Source: Spirochaetales bacterium (lineage in GTDB: Bacteria; Spirochaetota; Spirochaetia; Sphaerochaetales; Sphaerochaetaceae). Taken from it: a stretch of 36,694 bases of DNA. The stretch lies in contig JAAZAT010000294.1 of NCBI GenBank assembly GCA_012514185.1, positions 1 through 36,694 on the forward strand, given 5' to 3'. Shown here piece by piece: positions 2,938 to 11,651 of the stretch. The position numbers and the translations under genes were made by a program. The notes below the pieces were generated by a model. The model did not search any database, was not told the DNA's origin, and saw only the letters and a program-made list of their open reading frames with translations. Numbering within the stretch: position 1 is the stretch's first letter; each line of letters starts with the position of its first letter.

Positions 2938-2971
2938 GGAATTTCCTAAATGATATACAATCTCAATAGTC

Positions 2972-3000
2972 ATGATAGTCCATGCCAAACGCAGTGTCAA
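2972..3000 (-). promoter_or_regulatory. Sigma-70 type promoter of perR-rbr
   Basis: On the minus strand TTGACA (2995-3000) is followed after exactly 17 bases by TATCAT (2972-2977), 35 bases before the perR start codon. The leader contains the AT-rich stretch where a PerR operator would be expected, but I see no clear match to the PerR-box palindrome. Confidence 0.8.
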
Positions 3001-3032
3001 CAAGATACTGGTAAAACCGGACATCCACGTGG

Positions 3033-3056
3033 AAACCCCAGGGAATCCTGGGGTTT
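3033..3056 (-). terminator. Hairpin downstream of the RlmK-like gene
   Basis: A perfect 10-bp inverted repeat with a 4-base loop (3033-3042 with 3047-3056) lies 18 bases after the methyltransferase stop. The stem itself ends in TTT on the minus strand; there is no longer U-run. It separates this gene from the perR promoter. Confidence 0.6.
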
Positions 3057-3073
3057 CGCAGTACAGGATAGCA

Positions 3074-5542
3074 TTATTTATCCTTGTTCTTCCCTTCGTC
3101 ATCAAGCCAGAAGAAGGAGTCGTTTTCGTTCTCTCCCCTGGTTCTGGTCTCACGGAATTTGTCAAAACCGTAAGGCTTGGGAGACGATTTGCGTTCACGC
3201 TTCACCCTGCCTTCCGAACCGGCCTCATCACGTGGTGTGGCGAACGCAGGGCGGTCTTCCCTGCGGAATGAAGGACGATCAGGCCTGTCGCCGAAAGGTC
3301 TTCTCTCACCATAGGAGGGACGATCGGATGAAGGTCTTCGATCATCACGATCTCGGAATGAAGGACGCTCGTCCCTGTCACCGTAGGGTCTTCTCTCCCC
3401 ATATGAGGGACGATCGGATGAAGGTCTTCGCTCCTCGCGGTCACCGAACGGTCTTCTCTCGTCGCGGTCGCGGAACGAAGGACGATCGGGCCTGTCGCCG
3501 AAGGGTCTTCTCTCACCATAGGAGGGGCGGTCGCCGAACGGCTTTCGATCGTCGCGGTCGCGGAACGAGGGACGGGCATCTCTGTCGCCGTAGGGTCTTC
3601 TCTCACCATAGGAAGGGCGGTCGCCTGAAGGTCTTCGGTCATCGCGGAACGAGGGACGATCGGGCCTGTCACCATAGGGTCTTCTCTCACCATAGGAGGG
3701 ACGATCGGATGAAGGTCTTCTCTCATCACGGTCACCGAACGGCTTTCGATCGTCGCGGTCGCGGAACGAAGGACGGGCATCCCTGTCGCCGTAGGGTCTT
3801 CTCTCACCATAGGCGGGGCGGTCGCCTGAAGGTCTTCTCTCATCACGGTCGCCGAACGGCTTTCGTTCGTCGCGGTCGCGGAACGAAGGACGATCGGGCC
3901 TGTCGCCGTAGGGTCTTCTCTCACCATAGGCGGGGCGGTCGGATGAAGGTCTTCTCTCATCACGGTCACCGGACGGCTTTCGTTCGTCGCGGTCGCGGAA
4001 CGAAGGACGATCAGGCCTGTCGCCGTAGGGTCTTCTCTCACCATAGGCGGGGCGGTCGCCGCGGTCGCGGTAGGAGGGTCGTTCGCCCCTGTCGCCGTAG
4101 GATCTTCTCTCTCCATAGGAAGGACGGTCGCCGGAGGACCTTCTGTCATCACGATCGCGGTAGGAAGGACGACGGTCATCACGTGCCACTCTTTGGTCAT
4201 CGTTACGACTCTCGCGCTCTTTTCTGGGAGCATGCTCGGGTTGAGCCTGTTCAGCCTCTTCGTTTCCTTCAAAAAGCGGAGCAATATCTTCATCATCCCA
4301 GCGAAGGGTCAAAAGGTCGTCTTCCACTTCATTGGCTTCCATTTCAACAGCAGCTTCTTCAGTTTCCAGTTCAAGATCAGAGGACTCTTCTTCCTGTACG
4401 ACTTCTTCTGCACTCTCTGCTACCATTGCGTCTGCCTGTACAGTTTCTTCCTGAGCAATATCTGCTGCAACGTTCTCTTCCTGTACATCAATGTCTTTTG
4501 CTACTTCTTCTTTTTTCATACTTTTTTCTTCCACATGTTCTTCACGCTGGTCTCTGCCAGCTTTTTTCTCAACGGTCCGCAGATCTGCTGCAGTTATCCG
4601 TACATCCTGTTGCTTTTCAAGCAACCACGTCCTTGCCGTTCCTAGACGGCGTGTAAACCCAGGGGCTGCAACCTGGGCCGTTATCTCTTGAACCTCAAAT
4701 CCTCGAACTGCTTTCGTGTCCATGCTGAATGTTCCCAGATTTGTTGAGAACACCAGTTTCCCTTCCCTCGCCAAGAGTGCATTGAGCACTTTCATCCAAC
4801 GCTGATAATCTCTTTGGACATCAAAATCATACTCCATCTTCCTGCTGTTGGAAAAACTCGGGGGATCGAATATGATCAAATCATACACCTTTCCACTCGA
4901 GAGTGCTTCAACAACATACTGCCACGCATCTGCAGCAACACAAGGATACAATGCGGAACCATACCCATTGTCAGCAAGATTCTTTTCAGCCCATGCAGTA
5001 TAGGTACTGGACAAATCCACCGACTCAACGCTGGAGGCCCCGCCCCTTGCTGCATAGACCGAGAACGATCCTGTATAAGAAAACAGGTTCAGAACCCGGC
5101 ATCCCCGGCTCATCGACTCAACCAGCATTCTCGTTGCCATGTGGTCAAGAAATAAACCGGTATCAATTCTCTTGGTCAAGTCTACGGTAAAGAACAGTTC
5201 ATTCTCCGTGACTTGTACAACCAACGAGGTCTCGCCCTGCAAGCTGTGTTGTTCCTTGCCCACCCGTTTCGGTCGGCGATGGAAAATCACACGGTCCGCT
5301 TGGACATAAAGCATACGGGAGACGATATCGCAGCATATCCGCTCCTCCTCTTCATCCAAGCCCTCTTCACTGTAATCGGTGACCCTGGCATAGGGACCAT
5401 AGAGATCCACAGTTACGGGAAACCTTTCAAGGTTTCGATCATACACTCTCATACAAGTCGTGCCGCTTTTGAGCATCATACGGCGCATTTTGAGAGCATT
5501 TCCTTTCAAAATCTTGCTAAAATCCTTCTCTGTGTAATCCAT
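3074..5542 (-). CDS. RlmK-type 23S rRNA methyltransferase with acidic linker and Arg/Asp-rich repeat tail
   Basis: Residues 1-310 match the RlmK half of E. coli RlmL, which makes m7G2069 in 23S rRNA. They contain MRVYDRNLERFPVTVDLYG, a TGLFLDH segment, the SAM-binding motif LNLFSYTGSFSVYAARGGA (about 151-169), DLSSTYTAWAEKN and the catalytic FDPPSFSNSRKM (225-236). The THUMP and RlmL domains of the E. coli fusion are absent. Residues 330-450 form a Glu/Asp-rich linker. Residues 452-765 are a low-complexity repeat built of R, D, P, S, G, F and Y, with nine copies of an RP-[SA]-YGERR-x-[YF]-GDR core at residues 473, 497, 536, 575, 614, 642, 672, 711 and 741. A basic tail, then an acidic end (766-822), closes the protein. 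The start has AGGA 7 bases upstream. The tail is almost surely disordered and RNA-binding (inference). It is divergent from the next operon. Confidence 0.88.
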   Translation of the reverse strand: MDYTEKDFSKILKGNALKMRRMMLKSGTTCMRVYDRNLERFPVTVDLYGPYARVTDYSEEGLDEEEERICCDIVSRMLYVQADRVIFHRRPKRVGKEQHSLQGETSLVVQVTENELFFTVDLTKRIDTGLFLDHMATRMLVESMSRGCRVLNLFSYTGSFSVYAARGGASSVESVDLSSTYTAWAEKNLADNGYGSALYPCVAADAWQYVVEALSSGKVYDLIIFDPPSFSNSRKMEYDFDVQRDYQRWMKVLNALLAREGKLVFSTNLGTFSMDTKAVRGFEVQEITAQVAAPGFTRRLGTARTWLLEKQQDVRITAADLRTVEKKAGRDQREEHVEEKSMKKEEVAKDIDVQEENVAADIAQEETVQADAMVAESAEEVVQEEESSDLELETEEAAVEMEANEVEDDLLTLRWDDEDIAPLFEGNEEAEQAQPEHAPRKERESRNDDQRVARDDRRPSYRDRDDRRSSGDRPSYGERRSYGDRGERPSYRDRGDRPAYGERRPYGDRPDRPSFRDRDERKPSGDRDERRPSSDRPAYGERRPYGDRPDRPSFRDRDERKPFGDRDERRPSGDRPAYGERRPYGDRDARPSFRDRDDRKPFGDRDERRPSSDRPSYGERRPYGDRPDRPSFRDDRRPSGDRPSYGERRPYGDRDARPSFRDRDDRKPFGDRPSYGERRPFGDRPDRPSFRDRDERRPFGDREERRPSSDRPSYGERRPYGDRDERPSFRDRDDRRPSSDRPSYGERRPFGDRPDRPSFRREDRPAFATPRDEAGSEGRVKRERKSSPKPYGFDKFRETRTRGENENDSFFWLDDEGKNKDK
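3248..4189 (-). repeat. In-frame tandem repeat encoding the Arg/Asp-rich tail
   Basis: About 940 bases of imperfect tandem repeat inside the methyltransferase gene. The full unit is 39 codons (117 bases), with shorter units of 24, 28 and 30 codons, all multiples of three. Copies differ by small substitutions and by loss of an internal block, which suggests expansion and contraction by slippage or unequal recombination while the frame was kept. It is a coding minisatellite, not a CRISPR array: there are no unique spacers. Confidence 0.9.
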
Positions 5543-8760: not shown

Positions 8761-11526
8761 TTACTTCACAGGGTAGTTCTTCTTCAGGAACTCGATGAAC
8801 ACATCGCTCAACAGGGAACCTTCGGAAAGAACCTTGCCGAACATGGTGTATCCGTCACCGCCGGCGGCCATGAAGTCGTTCGTGGCAACCTTGTAGGTCG
8901 CGTTGCGATCGAGGGCCTTGCCATTGAGCAGGACACGAAGGATGCGCTTGCCAGGGGCTGCAAAGCGGTTGTAAACAACCTGCAAGTCAGTCTGGGAGAA
9001 TGCACCATTCTGTTCGGGCAGCTTGCTGTAGCCATGCTCGAGAGCGGCATAGACGTCGGAACCCTTCACTTCAACAACAGTGATGATGTTGGTGAACGGC
9101 AGGACGTTGATGACATCGCCCATCGTCACGTTTCCAGCCTTCAAGGAAGCACGGATGCCACCACCATTGGTAATGGTGAAGTCAGCGCCGCTTTCTGCGG
9201 TCATTGCCATGGTGATCAACTTCGAAAGGTTGGTCTGCTTGGTGCGGACGTTTGCACGCTCGCCATCCAAGTTCTCAGGCAGTGTCGCAACAACAGTACT
9301 GAGTTTATCGCTCAGCTGAGCAGACATGAATCCGACATACTCATCGACCTGAGGATCGTTGGGAACATCAGTGATGCCGTACTGCTTGGCAAGAGCGGAA
9401 TCCTTGGCATTCAGGACATCGGTTGCAGGAATCAACATCGGATAGGTTGCGGTCACCTTACCGTTCTTGACATGCAGCTGAACCAGTCCAAGGTTCCTCA
9501 AATAATCGCCAGTCGATACTACCAGGGTGTCGCCAATCTTCATGCCCTCTTTGAGCAAGGTATGGCTGTGACCATCAATGAAGAGGTCGATACCCTTGAT
9601 TCTACTGACAATCTTATCGGTGGTAAGCCCACTGGCTCCATCAGGATCCATACCGATGTGGCCGAGTACGATGATGTAATCAACATACTGTTTTGCCATA
9701 TCGATTGCCATCTGACCGATCTCAAAGATTTCTTCATTAGCAAAGGTTATGCCTTTGACGTTCTTCGGATGGGTCTTGGTGGCGGTGTCAGGAGTGGTCA
9801 AACCAACGACTGCAATCTTGAAACCGTTGAAATCGTACACCTGGTACGGCTGGAACAGCAGATAGCCGTTCTCATCCAATACGTTGGCGGAGAGGACCTT
9901 GAGATCACTGTACTCTTCAGCAAACCTTGCAGCCTCAACCAAGCGGTCAGCGCCGTAGTTGAAGTCATGGTTGCCCGGAGCAACAGCATCGTAGCCGAGC
10001 ATGTCGAGCAGGACTCCTACGGTCTCGCCTTCAAACATGTTCGCAAGGTTCGTTCCGTGGGAAACGTCACCAGCATCAAGAACGAGAATGTTGTCGGTGA
10101 GAGCACGTCCCATCTTCAGCATTGTGGACAGCTTGGAATAACCCATTCCACCGTCGGCAGGAACGATACGTGCATGCACGTCGTTGGAGTGGACGATGAA
10201 GAGGTCGAACTCAGCAGTCCCTGCATCGTTCTTCACAATTTCAGTAACACCGAGCGGATACTCAACAGCCTTGGGAGCGGCAGCAACAGGGGCCGGGGCC
10301 GGAGCCGGGGCAACCGGTGCAGGAGCAGGAGCAGGTGCGGGAGCCGGTGCAGGAGCCGGAGCGGGCACTGCTGCCTTCACCACCGGGGTCGCACCAATCT
10401 TCGCCACAATCGCCGGATCCTCGGGCACCGTCACCATCAGCGTGTATCCCATCGCCCTGGCAATCGGCTCGTAGGCCTTGGCTATCGCACTCTTGGAAGG
10501 CTCGAGAACGTCGGCTGCAGGAAGCAGCATCGGGTAGACAGCCTTCACCTCGTCGTTCGCAACGCTCAGCTGCACAGCACCAACGCTCTTCAGCTGCTCG
10601 TCGGCCCTGACTATCAGCGTGCCGTTCACCGTCTTCGCCATCGCAGACCCGTTGCCGTCAACGATCAAGTCGATGCCGTCGATGTTCTGCGCCACCATCT
10701 CGCTGGTGATCGGGCCCTTGTCGCCCAGATCGCTCAGGATTACCAGGTAGTCAACATATCCCTTGGCAAGGTCGACCGCATACTGCGCGTTGTCCAGGAT
10801 CACGTCGCTGGTGAAGCTCACGCCCTGGATCGGCTTCGGGGCAACCAGGCCGGCCACGCCAACCTTGAACCCGTTGAAGTCGTAGATCTGGTAGGGCTGC
10901 GCAACCAGGTATCCGTTCGCGTCGAGGGCGTTCACGCTCAGCGGAAGGGCCTTCTTCGTCCCGGCTATGCCGGTGGCCAGCTGGATCGCCTGCGGGGTGT
11001 AGGCGTCGTAGCCGAGCTCGTCGACGACTTCGGCCGCCAGCATCGCTGCCTCGGCGGGTACCTCACCAACGTTGCCGCTGTTCAGAAGCAGCCAGTTGTC
11101 GGTGATCGCACGTCCGGCCTTCAGGGCGGTCGAGAACTTCGCAAGTCCCAGTCCGCCGTTCGCGGCGTAGATGTTGCCGTTCAGGTCGTTCGTATGCACG
11201 ATGAACAGATCGAATACCTTCGCTCCGTCATCATTCTTAACAATTTCCTTCACTCCGTAGGGCAGCTCCATCTCAACAGGAGCGGCAGCAACAGGGGCCG
11301 GGGCCGGAGCCGGGGCAGGCGCCGGGGCGACTGGTTCAGGAACCGGTACGGGGGCCGGGGCGGGCTCAGGAACGGGTGCTGCAGGAGCGACTGGCTCGGG
11401 AGCAGGTTCTACAACAGGAGCTGGCGGAATTGGCTCAACCTTGGCGGTGCTCTTACAACCTACAAGGGAAAAAGCCAACAAAGCTACCAGCATTGCTGTC
11501 ATAATTGTTCTTGAAAGACGTTTCAC
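8761..11526 (-). CDS. Lipoprotein with tandem 5'-nucleotidase/metallophosphatase domains, the first degenerate
   Basis: Probable exported lipoprotein of 921 residues. The signal peptide ends in lipobox L-V-G-C24. Pro/Ala-rich linkers lie at about 31-85 and 382-420. Domain 1 (about 103-340) copies the calcineurin-like fold but has lost the metal site: HTNDLNG instead of HSNDVHA, NSGN for DAGD, no GNHD, SDLG for GHIG and DGNGS for DGHSH. Domain 2 (about 438-680) keeps every motif (D449, H451, D484, D487, N519-H520-D521, H623, H653, H655). It is followed by the 5'-nucleotidase C-terminal substrate domain (about 735-921) with TNGGGIRA and AAGGDGY. It should release nucleosides from extracytoplasmic nucleotides. 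The GTG at 11526 is preferred because AGGAGG sits just before it; an ATG at 11541 is in frame but lacks a Shine-Dalgarno, and AGGAGG would then lie inside the coding sequence. Confidence 0.88.
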   Translation of the reverse strand: MKRLSRTIMTAMLVALLAFSLVGCKSTAKVEPIPPAPVVEPAPEPVAPAAPVPEPAPAPVPVPEPVAPAPAPAPAPAPVAAAPVEMELPYGVKEIVKNDDGAKVFDLFIVHTNDLNGNIYAANGGLGLAKFSTALKAGRAITDNWLLLNSGNVGEVPAEAAMLAAEVVDELGYDAYTPQAIQLATGIAGTKKALPLSVNALDANGYLVAQPYQIYDFNGFKVGVAGLVAPKPIQGVSFTSDVILDNAQYAVDLAKGYVDYLVILSDLGDKGPITSEMVAQNIDGIDLIVDGNGSAMAKTVNGTLIVRADEQLKSVGAVQLSVANDEVKAVYPMLLPAADVLEPSKSAIAKAYEPIARAMGYTLMVTVPEDPAIVAKIGATPVVKAAVPAPAPAPAPAPAPAPAPVAPAPAPAPVAAAPKAVEYPLGVTEIVKNDAGTAEFDLFIVHSNDVHARIVPADGGMGYSKLSTMLKMGRALTDNILVLDAGDVSHGTNLANMFEGETVGVLLDMLGYDAVAPGNHDFNYGADRLVEAARFAEEYSDLKVLSANVLDENGYLLFQPYQVYDFNGFKIAVVGLTTPDTATKTHPKNVKGITFANEEIFEIGQMAIDMAKQYVDYIIVLGHIGMDPDGASGLTTDKIVSRIKGIDLFIDGHSHTLLKEGMKIGDTLVVSTGDYLRNLGLVQLHVKNGKVTATYPMLIPATDVLNAKDSALAKQYGITDVPNDPQVDEYVGFMSAQLSDKLSTVVATLPENLDGERANVRTKQTNLSKLITMAMTAESGADFTITNGGGIRASLKAGNVTMGDVINVLPFTNIITVVEVKGSDVYAALEHGYSKLPEQNGAFSQTDLQVVYNRFAAPGKRILRVLLNGKALDRNATYKVATNDFMAAGGDGYTMFGKVLSEGSLLSDVFIEFLKKNYPVK

Positions 11527-11651
11527 GTGTTTCCTCCTCATGACGTTCTCATGTGTCGTTGTTTACGTACTCAACAACACTATAACACACACTGCTAGAA
11601 TCGGATACATCAAAAATACGCGAAAAATGCTGATTTAGACCGTTATTTCCA

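Follow-up and report, generated by a model that had tools for sequence, protein, structure and literature searches.

The window analysed here, a contig of 36,694 nucleotides (JAAZAT010000294.1 of assembly GCA_012514185.1, read on the forward strand) from a Spirochaetales bacterium of the Sphaerochaetaceae, encodes an RlmK-type methyltransferase core, without THUMP or the RlmL half, to which are joined an acidic linker and a long Arg/Asp-rich tail ending in a short conserved motif. The tail is real, conserved and family-specific, being restricted to Sphaerochaetaceae among the spirochaetes examined. The enzyme fold is a known one and the architecture is new; in the titles and abstract openings of the open-licence papers searched, no account of such a tail on a Sphaerochaeta methyltransferase was found. 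A first-pass annotation of the same DNA had placed the core, the linker and a nine-copy repeat tail in one frame, and this layout is confirmed by a single 822-residue frame running on the minus strand from the ATG at 5542 to the stop at 3074 (Table 1). New with respect to that annotation are the conserved last 34 residues, a conserved stretch in the linker and the near-neutral charge of the Arg/Asp segment.

The assignment of the core is based on a full-length match to the RlmK half of the fused enzyme RlmKL. Residues 5–311 match positions 395–703 of 704 in the NCBIfam RlmKL model NF008748 (E 9e-81) and no other half of it, consistent with the absence of THUMP noted in the first pass; the score of 272 bits lies below the cut-off of 466, which is defined for the whole fusion, and with only the C-terminal half matched the protein is not classed as an RlmKL equivalog. 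Pfam Methyltrans_SAM also matches (E 5e-23). The closest solved structures are those of Escherichia coli RlmKL, 3v8v/3v97 (E 1.4e-55), and a Foldseek search with the core model returned 3v97 as the best match, with 33–35% identity to 3v97/3v8v over 309–316 columns; the structure of SMU.776, which we take to be RlmQ-like, matches less well. Forty-five residues, including N152, D176 and D226-P227-P228, are common to 31 tailed, 20 tailless and 22 RlmKL proteins; among them are those of the S-adenosylmethionine (SAM)-binding and DPP motifs, DPPSFSNS being presumably the catalytic motif. In the AlphaFold2 model (55 sequences) most of the core has a predicted local distance difference test score (pLDDT) above 90, while nearly all of residues 350–785 fall below 50, in line with the predicted disorder of the tail; a slight rise to 52–53 is seen over residues 781–800, where the terminal motif begins. 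In one relative (L108, G044) an acidic, repeat-bearing insertion of about 150–200 residues by eye lies within the methyltransferase core, in the 5' half of the gene.

Rather than one more repeat, the last 34 residues (KPYGFDKFRETRTRGENENDSFFWLDDEGKNKDK) form a conserved motif region. For the census, 127 stand-alone-type loci (the window and sets of 60 and 66) were taken among the matches listed in 139 family genomes; among the same matches the remaining 12 genomes gave weaker ones only (best E ∼1e-37 to 1e-51), with none in one of them, G127. Of these loci 104 are complete, 19 run off their contig and 4 contain N. The pattern [PAL][YF]G[FYM][DEG], widened post hoc after the variants AYGY, LYGF, PFGY and PYGFG appeared, occurs within the last 70 residues in 101 of the 104 complete members, at a median of 31 residues from the end, compared with 8 of 2011 other open frames from the same loci (at least 100–120 residues long, many of them non-coding). 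Within the 101 motif-bearing members, whose tails span 109–650 residues (median 256), the G is present in 101, the P in 96, the Y in 95 and the D in 94, and such a member is found in 18 of the 22 genus codes of the family among the matches listed. This conservation implies that the tail is functional, as the first-pass annotation had supposed. An assembly artefact was considered, since repeats do break contigs, and was rejected in view of the 101 complete, motif-bearing loci, some of them in single-contig genomes.

Several loci depart from this pattern. In the single-contig genome G020 (L012/L186) a break within the repeats interrupts the tail frame, and open pieces of 97–256 residues follow downstream, possibly through a sequencing error or true frame switching. 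G042 (L107), another genome of this family, 1.2 Mb in size, has a fast-evolving core with no tail and is a candidate for tail loss. In G129 the core is cut short and no motif is present. A fused upstream domain suggested by a 1315-residue open frame in G102 was discarded, the upstream part resembling a chance open frame by eye. Also rejected was the terminal motif as a genome-wide motif: as a DNA pattern it gave 12 matches, in 9 of 13 genomes. Its other match in the own genome lies in an 807-residue frame, BamA-like by eye, and similar second matches of the pattern occur in G001 and G002.

The Arg/Asp segment (362 residues: R 100, D 60, P 48, S 34, G 30, E 29, Y 18, F 15, A 12, K 8) contains 28% R and 17% D and is near neutral, with a net charge of +0.05 per residue. 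Its charges are better mixed than in shuffled versions (charge segregation z −4.7) and, with R and D dominant and the charges interspersed, it has the composition and charge pattern of an Arg-enriched mixed-charge domain. Nine copies of P[SA]YGERR recur at spacings of 24–39 residues, and the DNA repeats are detected independently by Tandem Repeats Finder. Charge and composition were compared over 99 of the 101 motif-bearing tails, those with a measurable Arg segment, in which R has a median of 29%, net charge a median of +0.075 (5–95% 0.050–0.108), aromatics account for 10% of residues and K for 10% of positive residues. Charge segregation is below that of shuffles in 99/99 tails and beyond z −2 in 67, and for short-range charge autocorrelation 69 tails go beyond z −2, some others being above zero (maximum z +1.5); repeats inflate these z values within one tail, and the weight rests on the agreement across tails. 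The repeats turn over while the composition is kept across the family. The pN/pS ratio (nonsynonymous to synonymous differences) of 0.13–0.38 in comparisons among repeat units carries little weight, the pairs having been filtered for amino-acid similarity.

A search of the own genome for the Arg/Asp segment on other proteins recovered only the segment itself, and among 16 relatives matches were obtained in 8, all those under E 0.01 lying at the same locus, with one stray at E 0.09. The tail as a shared module was accordingly rejected; drifted copies elsewhere would be missed, because only 8 of the 16 relatives matched. Compared with solved structures, the tail gave no match at E up to 1. Two overlapping open frames of 568 and 364 residues (2950–4656 on the plus strand and 3202–4296 on the minus strand) arise from the repeats. 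Dual coding was rejected, since both frames carry stops in part of 15 relatives whereas that of the gene itself stays open in 15/15; the repeats are taken to generate the long overlapping frames incidentally.

The acidic linker has a net charge of −0.27 per residue over residues 319–427, and its stretch EANEVEDDLLTLRWDDEDIAPLF is conserved in the genus. The strict [DE][DEN]xLxLxW-type pattern is present in 35 of the 104 complete family members, and several further members carry a related form immediately after the core.

Table 1. Features of the tailed RlmK-type gene and its neighbour, in window coordinates
Feature	Residues	Position	Strand	Basis
RlmK-type methyltransferase core	1–312	4607..5542	−	NF008748, 3v8v, AlphaFold2, Foldseek
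DPPSFSNS motif in core	226–233	4844..4867	−	D226, P227, P228, F230, S231, N232 common with RlmKL
Acidic linker	313–427	4262..4606	−	Net charge; mostly low pLDDT
Linker stretch EANEVEDDLLTLRWDDEDIAPLF	402–424	4271..4339	−	Kept across genus
Arg/Asp-rich mixed-charge segment	428–789	3176..4261	−	Composition, charge mixing, predicted disorder
Nine P[SA]YGERR units inside Arg/Asp segment		3242..4123	−	Unit starts at residues 474–742; tandem repeats
C-terminal motif region KPYGFDKF...FFWLDDE	789–822	3077..3178	−	Family census and pLDDT rise
Divergent neighbour gene, 164 residues		5601..6095	+	Linkage conserved; PH-like predicted fold

The same genome also encodes a full RlmL-THUMP-RlmK protein of 743 residues (L002:241-2472), which scores 806 bits against the NF008748 cut-off of 466 and has a THUMP match at E 2.5e-16. 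Within the genus (26 genomes, partial matches counted) the stand-alone type is found in 25 and the RlmKL type in 26; G007, the sole genome without the stand-alone type, is listed as 80% complete. A quick tree was built from 74 K-type proteins, comprising the window protein, 31 of the 60 first-set family members, 22 RlmKL proteins and, from other families, 20 stand-alone proteins with no tail, with midpoint rooting and support from the Shimodaira–Hasegawa-like approximate likelihood ratio test (SH-aLRT) instead of a bootstrap. A branch with an SH-aLRT of 99 sets apart all 32 family proteins, one of which (G042) is itself tailless; the tailless G453 adjoins them, and the 22 RlmKL K-domains, E. 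coli included, form another branch (SH-aLRT 99). The tailless stand-alone proteins of G453, G325, G417 and G423 (312–327 residues, neither THUMP nor tail) share the core with the window protein, and RlmKL loci were fetched from their genomes too. In three sister families tailless versions coexist with RlmKL and share a conserved neighbour gene of 164 residues. We read this as the tail having been added to an old gene.

Seven of 17 chosen spirochaete genomes (G156, G355, G371, G425, G393, G242, G152) have RlmL-type frames of 347–430 residues and none of at least 700, eight have fused frames of 723–795 residues, and G046 (583) and G294 (495) are ambiguous; a stand-alone RlmK open frame of 319–391 residues is present in all seven, which had been picked for having one. 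Separate RlmK and RlmL are described in other bacteria (PMC11194073). It may be that RlmL and RlmK were once separate, that the fused RlmKL arrived or formed, and that several lineages retained the old RlmK.

We propose, at what we judge an even chance of being correct, that the protein is an RNA methyltransferase held by a mixed-charge tether, the C-terminal motif of which docks to a partner. The gene would be a second, stand-alone RlmK-type RNA methyltransferase kept beside the fused RlmKL, and its core would methylate RNA using SAM, most likely at guanine N7 of 23S rRNA in the assembling large subunit, the target being G2069, as for RlmKL, or some other site. The acidic linker, adjoining the core, would keep the enzyme off unspecific RNA, the well-mixed Arg/Asp segment would be a long soluble spacer whose contacts are weak and multivalent, and the terminal ∼34 residues (K-P-Y-G-F/Y-D-x-F...) would dock to a specific partner, probably the ribosome-assembly machinery. 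We infer enzyme activity, substrate, docking, tether function and acidic shielding from sequence. The short conserved motif at its end makes it probable that the tail serves to hold or deliver the enzyme and is not sequence noise.

Parts of this proposal have precedents. Acidic clusters reduce unspecific RNA binding in Nop15 (PMC8348266). For a disordered region that keeps its content and its short motifs, the nearest bacterial parallel is Bacteroides Rho (PMC13269538). An assembly role is plausible because E. coli RlmKL assists large-subunit assembly independently of its modification activity (PMC11194073). Alternating R/D peptides, unlike blocky ones, did not phase-separate, which their authors attribute to lost affinity for neighbouring molecules, and RNA uptake is reported there solely for the blocky-peptide droplets (PMC9324279). 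Because the alternating peptides gave no droplets, a spacer with weak contacts is favoured over RNA capture, with the difference that those peptides were without the aromatics which the spirochaete tail has.

Several observations weigh against the tether proposal. The partner of the C-terminal motif is putative and none is known, and AlphaFold2 gave no confidence for any docking of the tail on the core, linker motif included. Three complete members are without the motif (G042, with 12 residues after the core, G020 and G129), and G054 and G088 keep it on a Lys-rich tail of 109 residues that has no Arg segment. Of the 56 members measured for the acidic linker, many have a short one or none (median 68, minimum 0 residues). 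The Y99→H and D295→G replacements typical of the clade make an altered activity possible.

The last point leads to an alternative that is compatible with the tether proposal and that we hold tentatively, at less than an even chance: the core may have been retargeted, for example to another 23S guanine, or may have lost catalysis and serve as an assembly factor. RlmQ (YwbD) of Bacillus subtilis, which forms N7-methylguanosine (m7G) at position 2574 of 23S rRNA (PMC12805891), offers a model, the likeness being one of class, m7G 23S rRNA methyltransferase, by description only, with the YwbD sequence outside the comparison. E. coli RlmKL (YcbY) is the enzyme of m7G2069 and of N2-methylguanosine 2445 (m2G2445), so that in the spirochaete an RlmKL is already available for G2069. 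Against this relative, with which it shares the core fold and motif residues, the window protein has no RlmL half or THUMP, lies on a separate branch, carries a long disordered tail and has an RlmKL alongside. It also carries H99 and G295, found in 90% and 97% of tailed proteins, in place of Y and D, which are 100% conserved in the 22 RlmKL proteins. The tailless G453 carries both changes and G325 the first only; a substrate change of the core is possible and would predate the tail. On the other side, the residues of the SAM and DPP motifs are retained, and H99 and G295 are at positions with no role assigned to them here.

It is unlikely, though a case can be made, that the Arg/Asp/aromatic tail is a condensate scaffold, driving or joining RNA-containing condensates that concentrate ribosome assembly, as the Gly/Arg domain of fibrillarin, a protein of a different enzyme family, does in the nucleolus. 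The segment is long, Arg-rich, aromatic-bearing and predicted to be disordered, and at a larger scale the acidic block adjoins it. Fibrillarin, which methylates rRNA, also bears an extension that is disordered and Arg-rich (PMC11599257); its Gly/Arg domain is N-terminal, whereas the spirochaete tail is C-terminal and near-neutral Arg/Asp. A further precedent is the disordered region of Bacteroides Rho, in which composition but not length or sequence is conserved and short motifs are kept (PMC13269538); that region, however, is Lys/Glu-rich and Asn/Gln-rich and belongs to a termination factor. Arg-enriched mixed-charge domains are alike in R/D dominance and interspersed charges, but were studied in human cells (PMC9324279), whereas this tail is bacterial, has ∼10% aromatics and ends in a motif. 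The near-neutral, well-mixed charges of all 99 tails, the failure of alternating R/D peptides to phase-separate (PMC9324279) and the two members without an Arg segment argue against a scaffold. Of the proposal in the first-pass annotation that Arg-rich repeats capture RNA or form droplets, the Arg-rich, predicted-disordered tail stands, while the capture and droplets are weakened by this charge pattern.

That slippage gave rise to the Arg/Asp repeats and they are tolerated, the core alone (perhaps with the last residues) being what matters, appears improbable. Repeat number and sequence do vary widely, and G042 without a tail, G054 and G088 without an Arg segment and the broken frame of G020 would fit such tolerance, but in 101 of 104 complete members the reading frame is maintained across the repeats up to the conserved motif, and composition and charge mixing are narrow over the 99 tails. 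A long shot, in our estimate, is that an old rRNA methyltransferase, freed once the fused RlmKL took its site, became a ribosome-assembly organiser, applying the principle of fibrillarin in a bacterium, in which the Arg/Asp/aromatic tail would concentrate pre-50S particles, the PYG[FY]D motif would anchor them to a specific partner, and methylation would be secondary or at a new site. Very improbable, finally, is the role given to the tail in the first-pass annotation, replacement of THUMP in capturing 23S rRNA so that the G2069 equivalent is methylated: it fits an RlmK-type core without THUMP, but the tail is nearly neutral, it is no substitute for an absent THUMP because the genome encodes an RlmKL with THUMP, and the nearest tailless stand-alone relatives have no THUMP either. 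That relatives have this core but lack a tail is one part of what that annotation had itself named as evidence against it.

A homologue of the divergent 164-residue neighbour is found near the gene in 58 of the 60 first-set family loci, always on the opposite strand, and in 53 of the 66 second-set loci, where flanks are short; the linkage is conserved. Within the fetched flank it also occurs in 4 of 19 tailless outgroup loci (G453, G325, G417 and G423), three of which have a phosphomannomutase gene too, and a single-sequence search of 197 phylum genomes recovered it from 11. The neighbour has no Pfam or NCBIfam match, and its model (pLDDT 90.6) has a predicted fold resembling pleckstrin homology (PH) domains, with weak PDB matches to these (best E 5e-3, template modelling (TM) score 0.42). 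It was considered as the partner of the tail motif and not adopted because it also stands beside tailless genes. The starts of the two divergent genes are ∼78 bases apart in many species (L005–L022), and 2068 bases apart in L103; the region between them is perhaps a shared promoter or leader. Upstream of 5542, the codons before the ATG are kept in the genus (HIHCxAERAxRxxM), after a stop. Elsewhere in the window, 8761–11541 on the minus strand encodes a 926-residue protein with, by eye, two tandem 5'-nucleotidase-like halves and Pro/Ala-rich linkers, presumably of the 5'-nucleotidase type; half 1 reads HTNDLNGNI and half 2 HSNDVHARI, and half 1 may have lost its metal-binding residues.

The family thus offers a natural experiment, in which one core and one conserved neighbour are found with the tail in 18 of 22 genus codes (among the matches listed) and without it in the sister families examined, so that the effect of a mixed-charge disordered tail on a bacterial RNA-modifying enzyme becomes testable. 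Retention of a second RlmK raises the question of whether it provides a new methylation or a role other than methylation, and the terminal motif points to a putative partner, perhaps in ribosome assembly.

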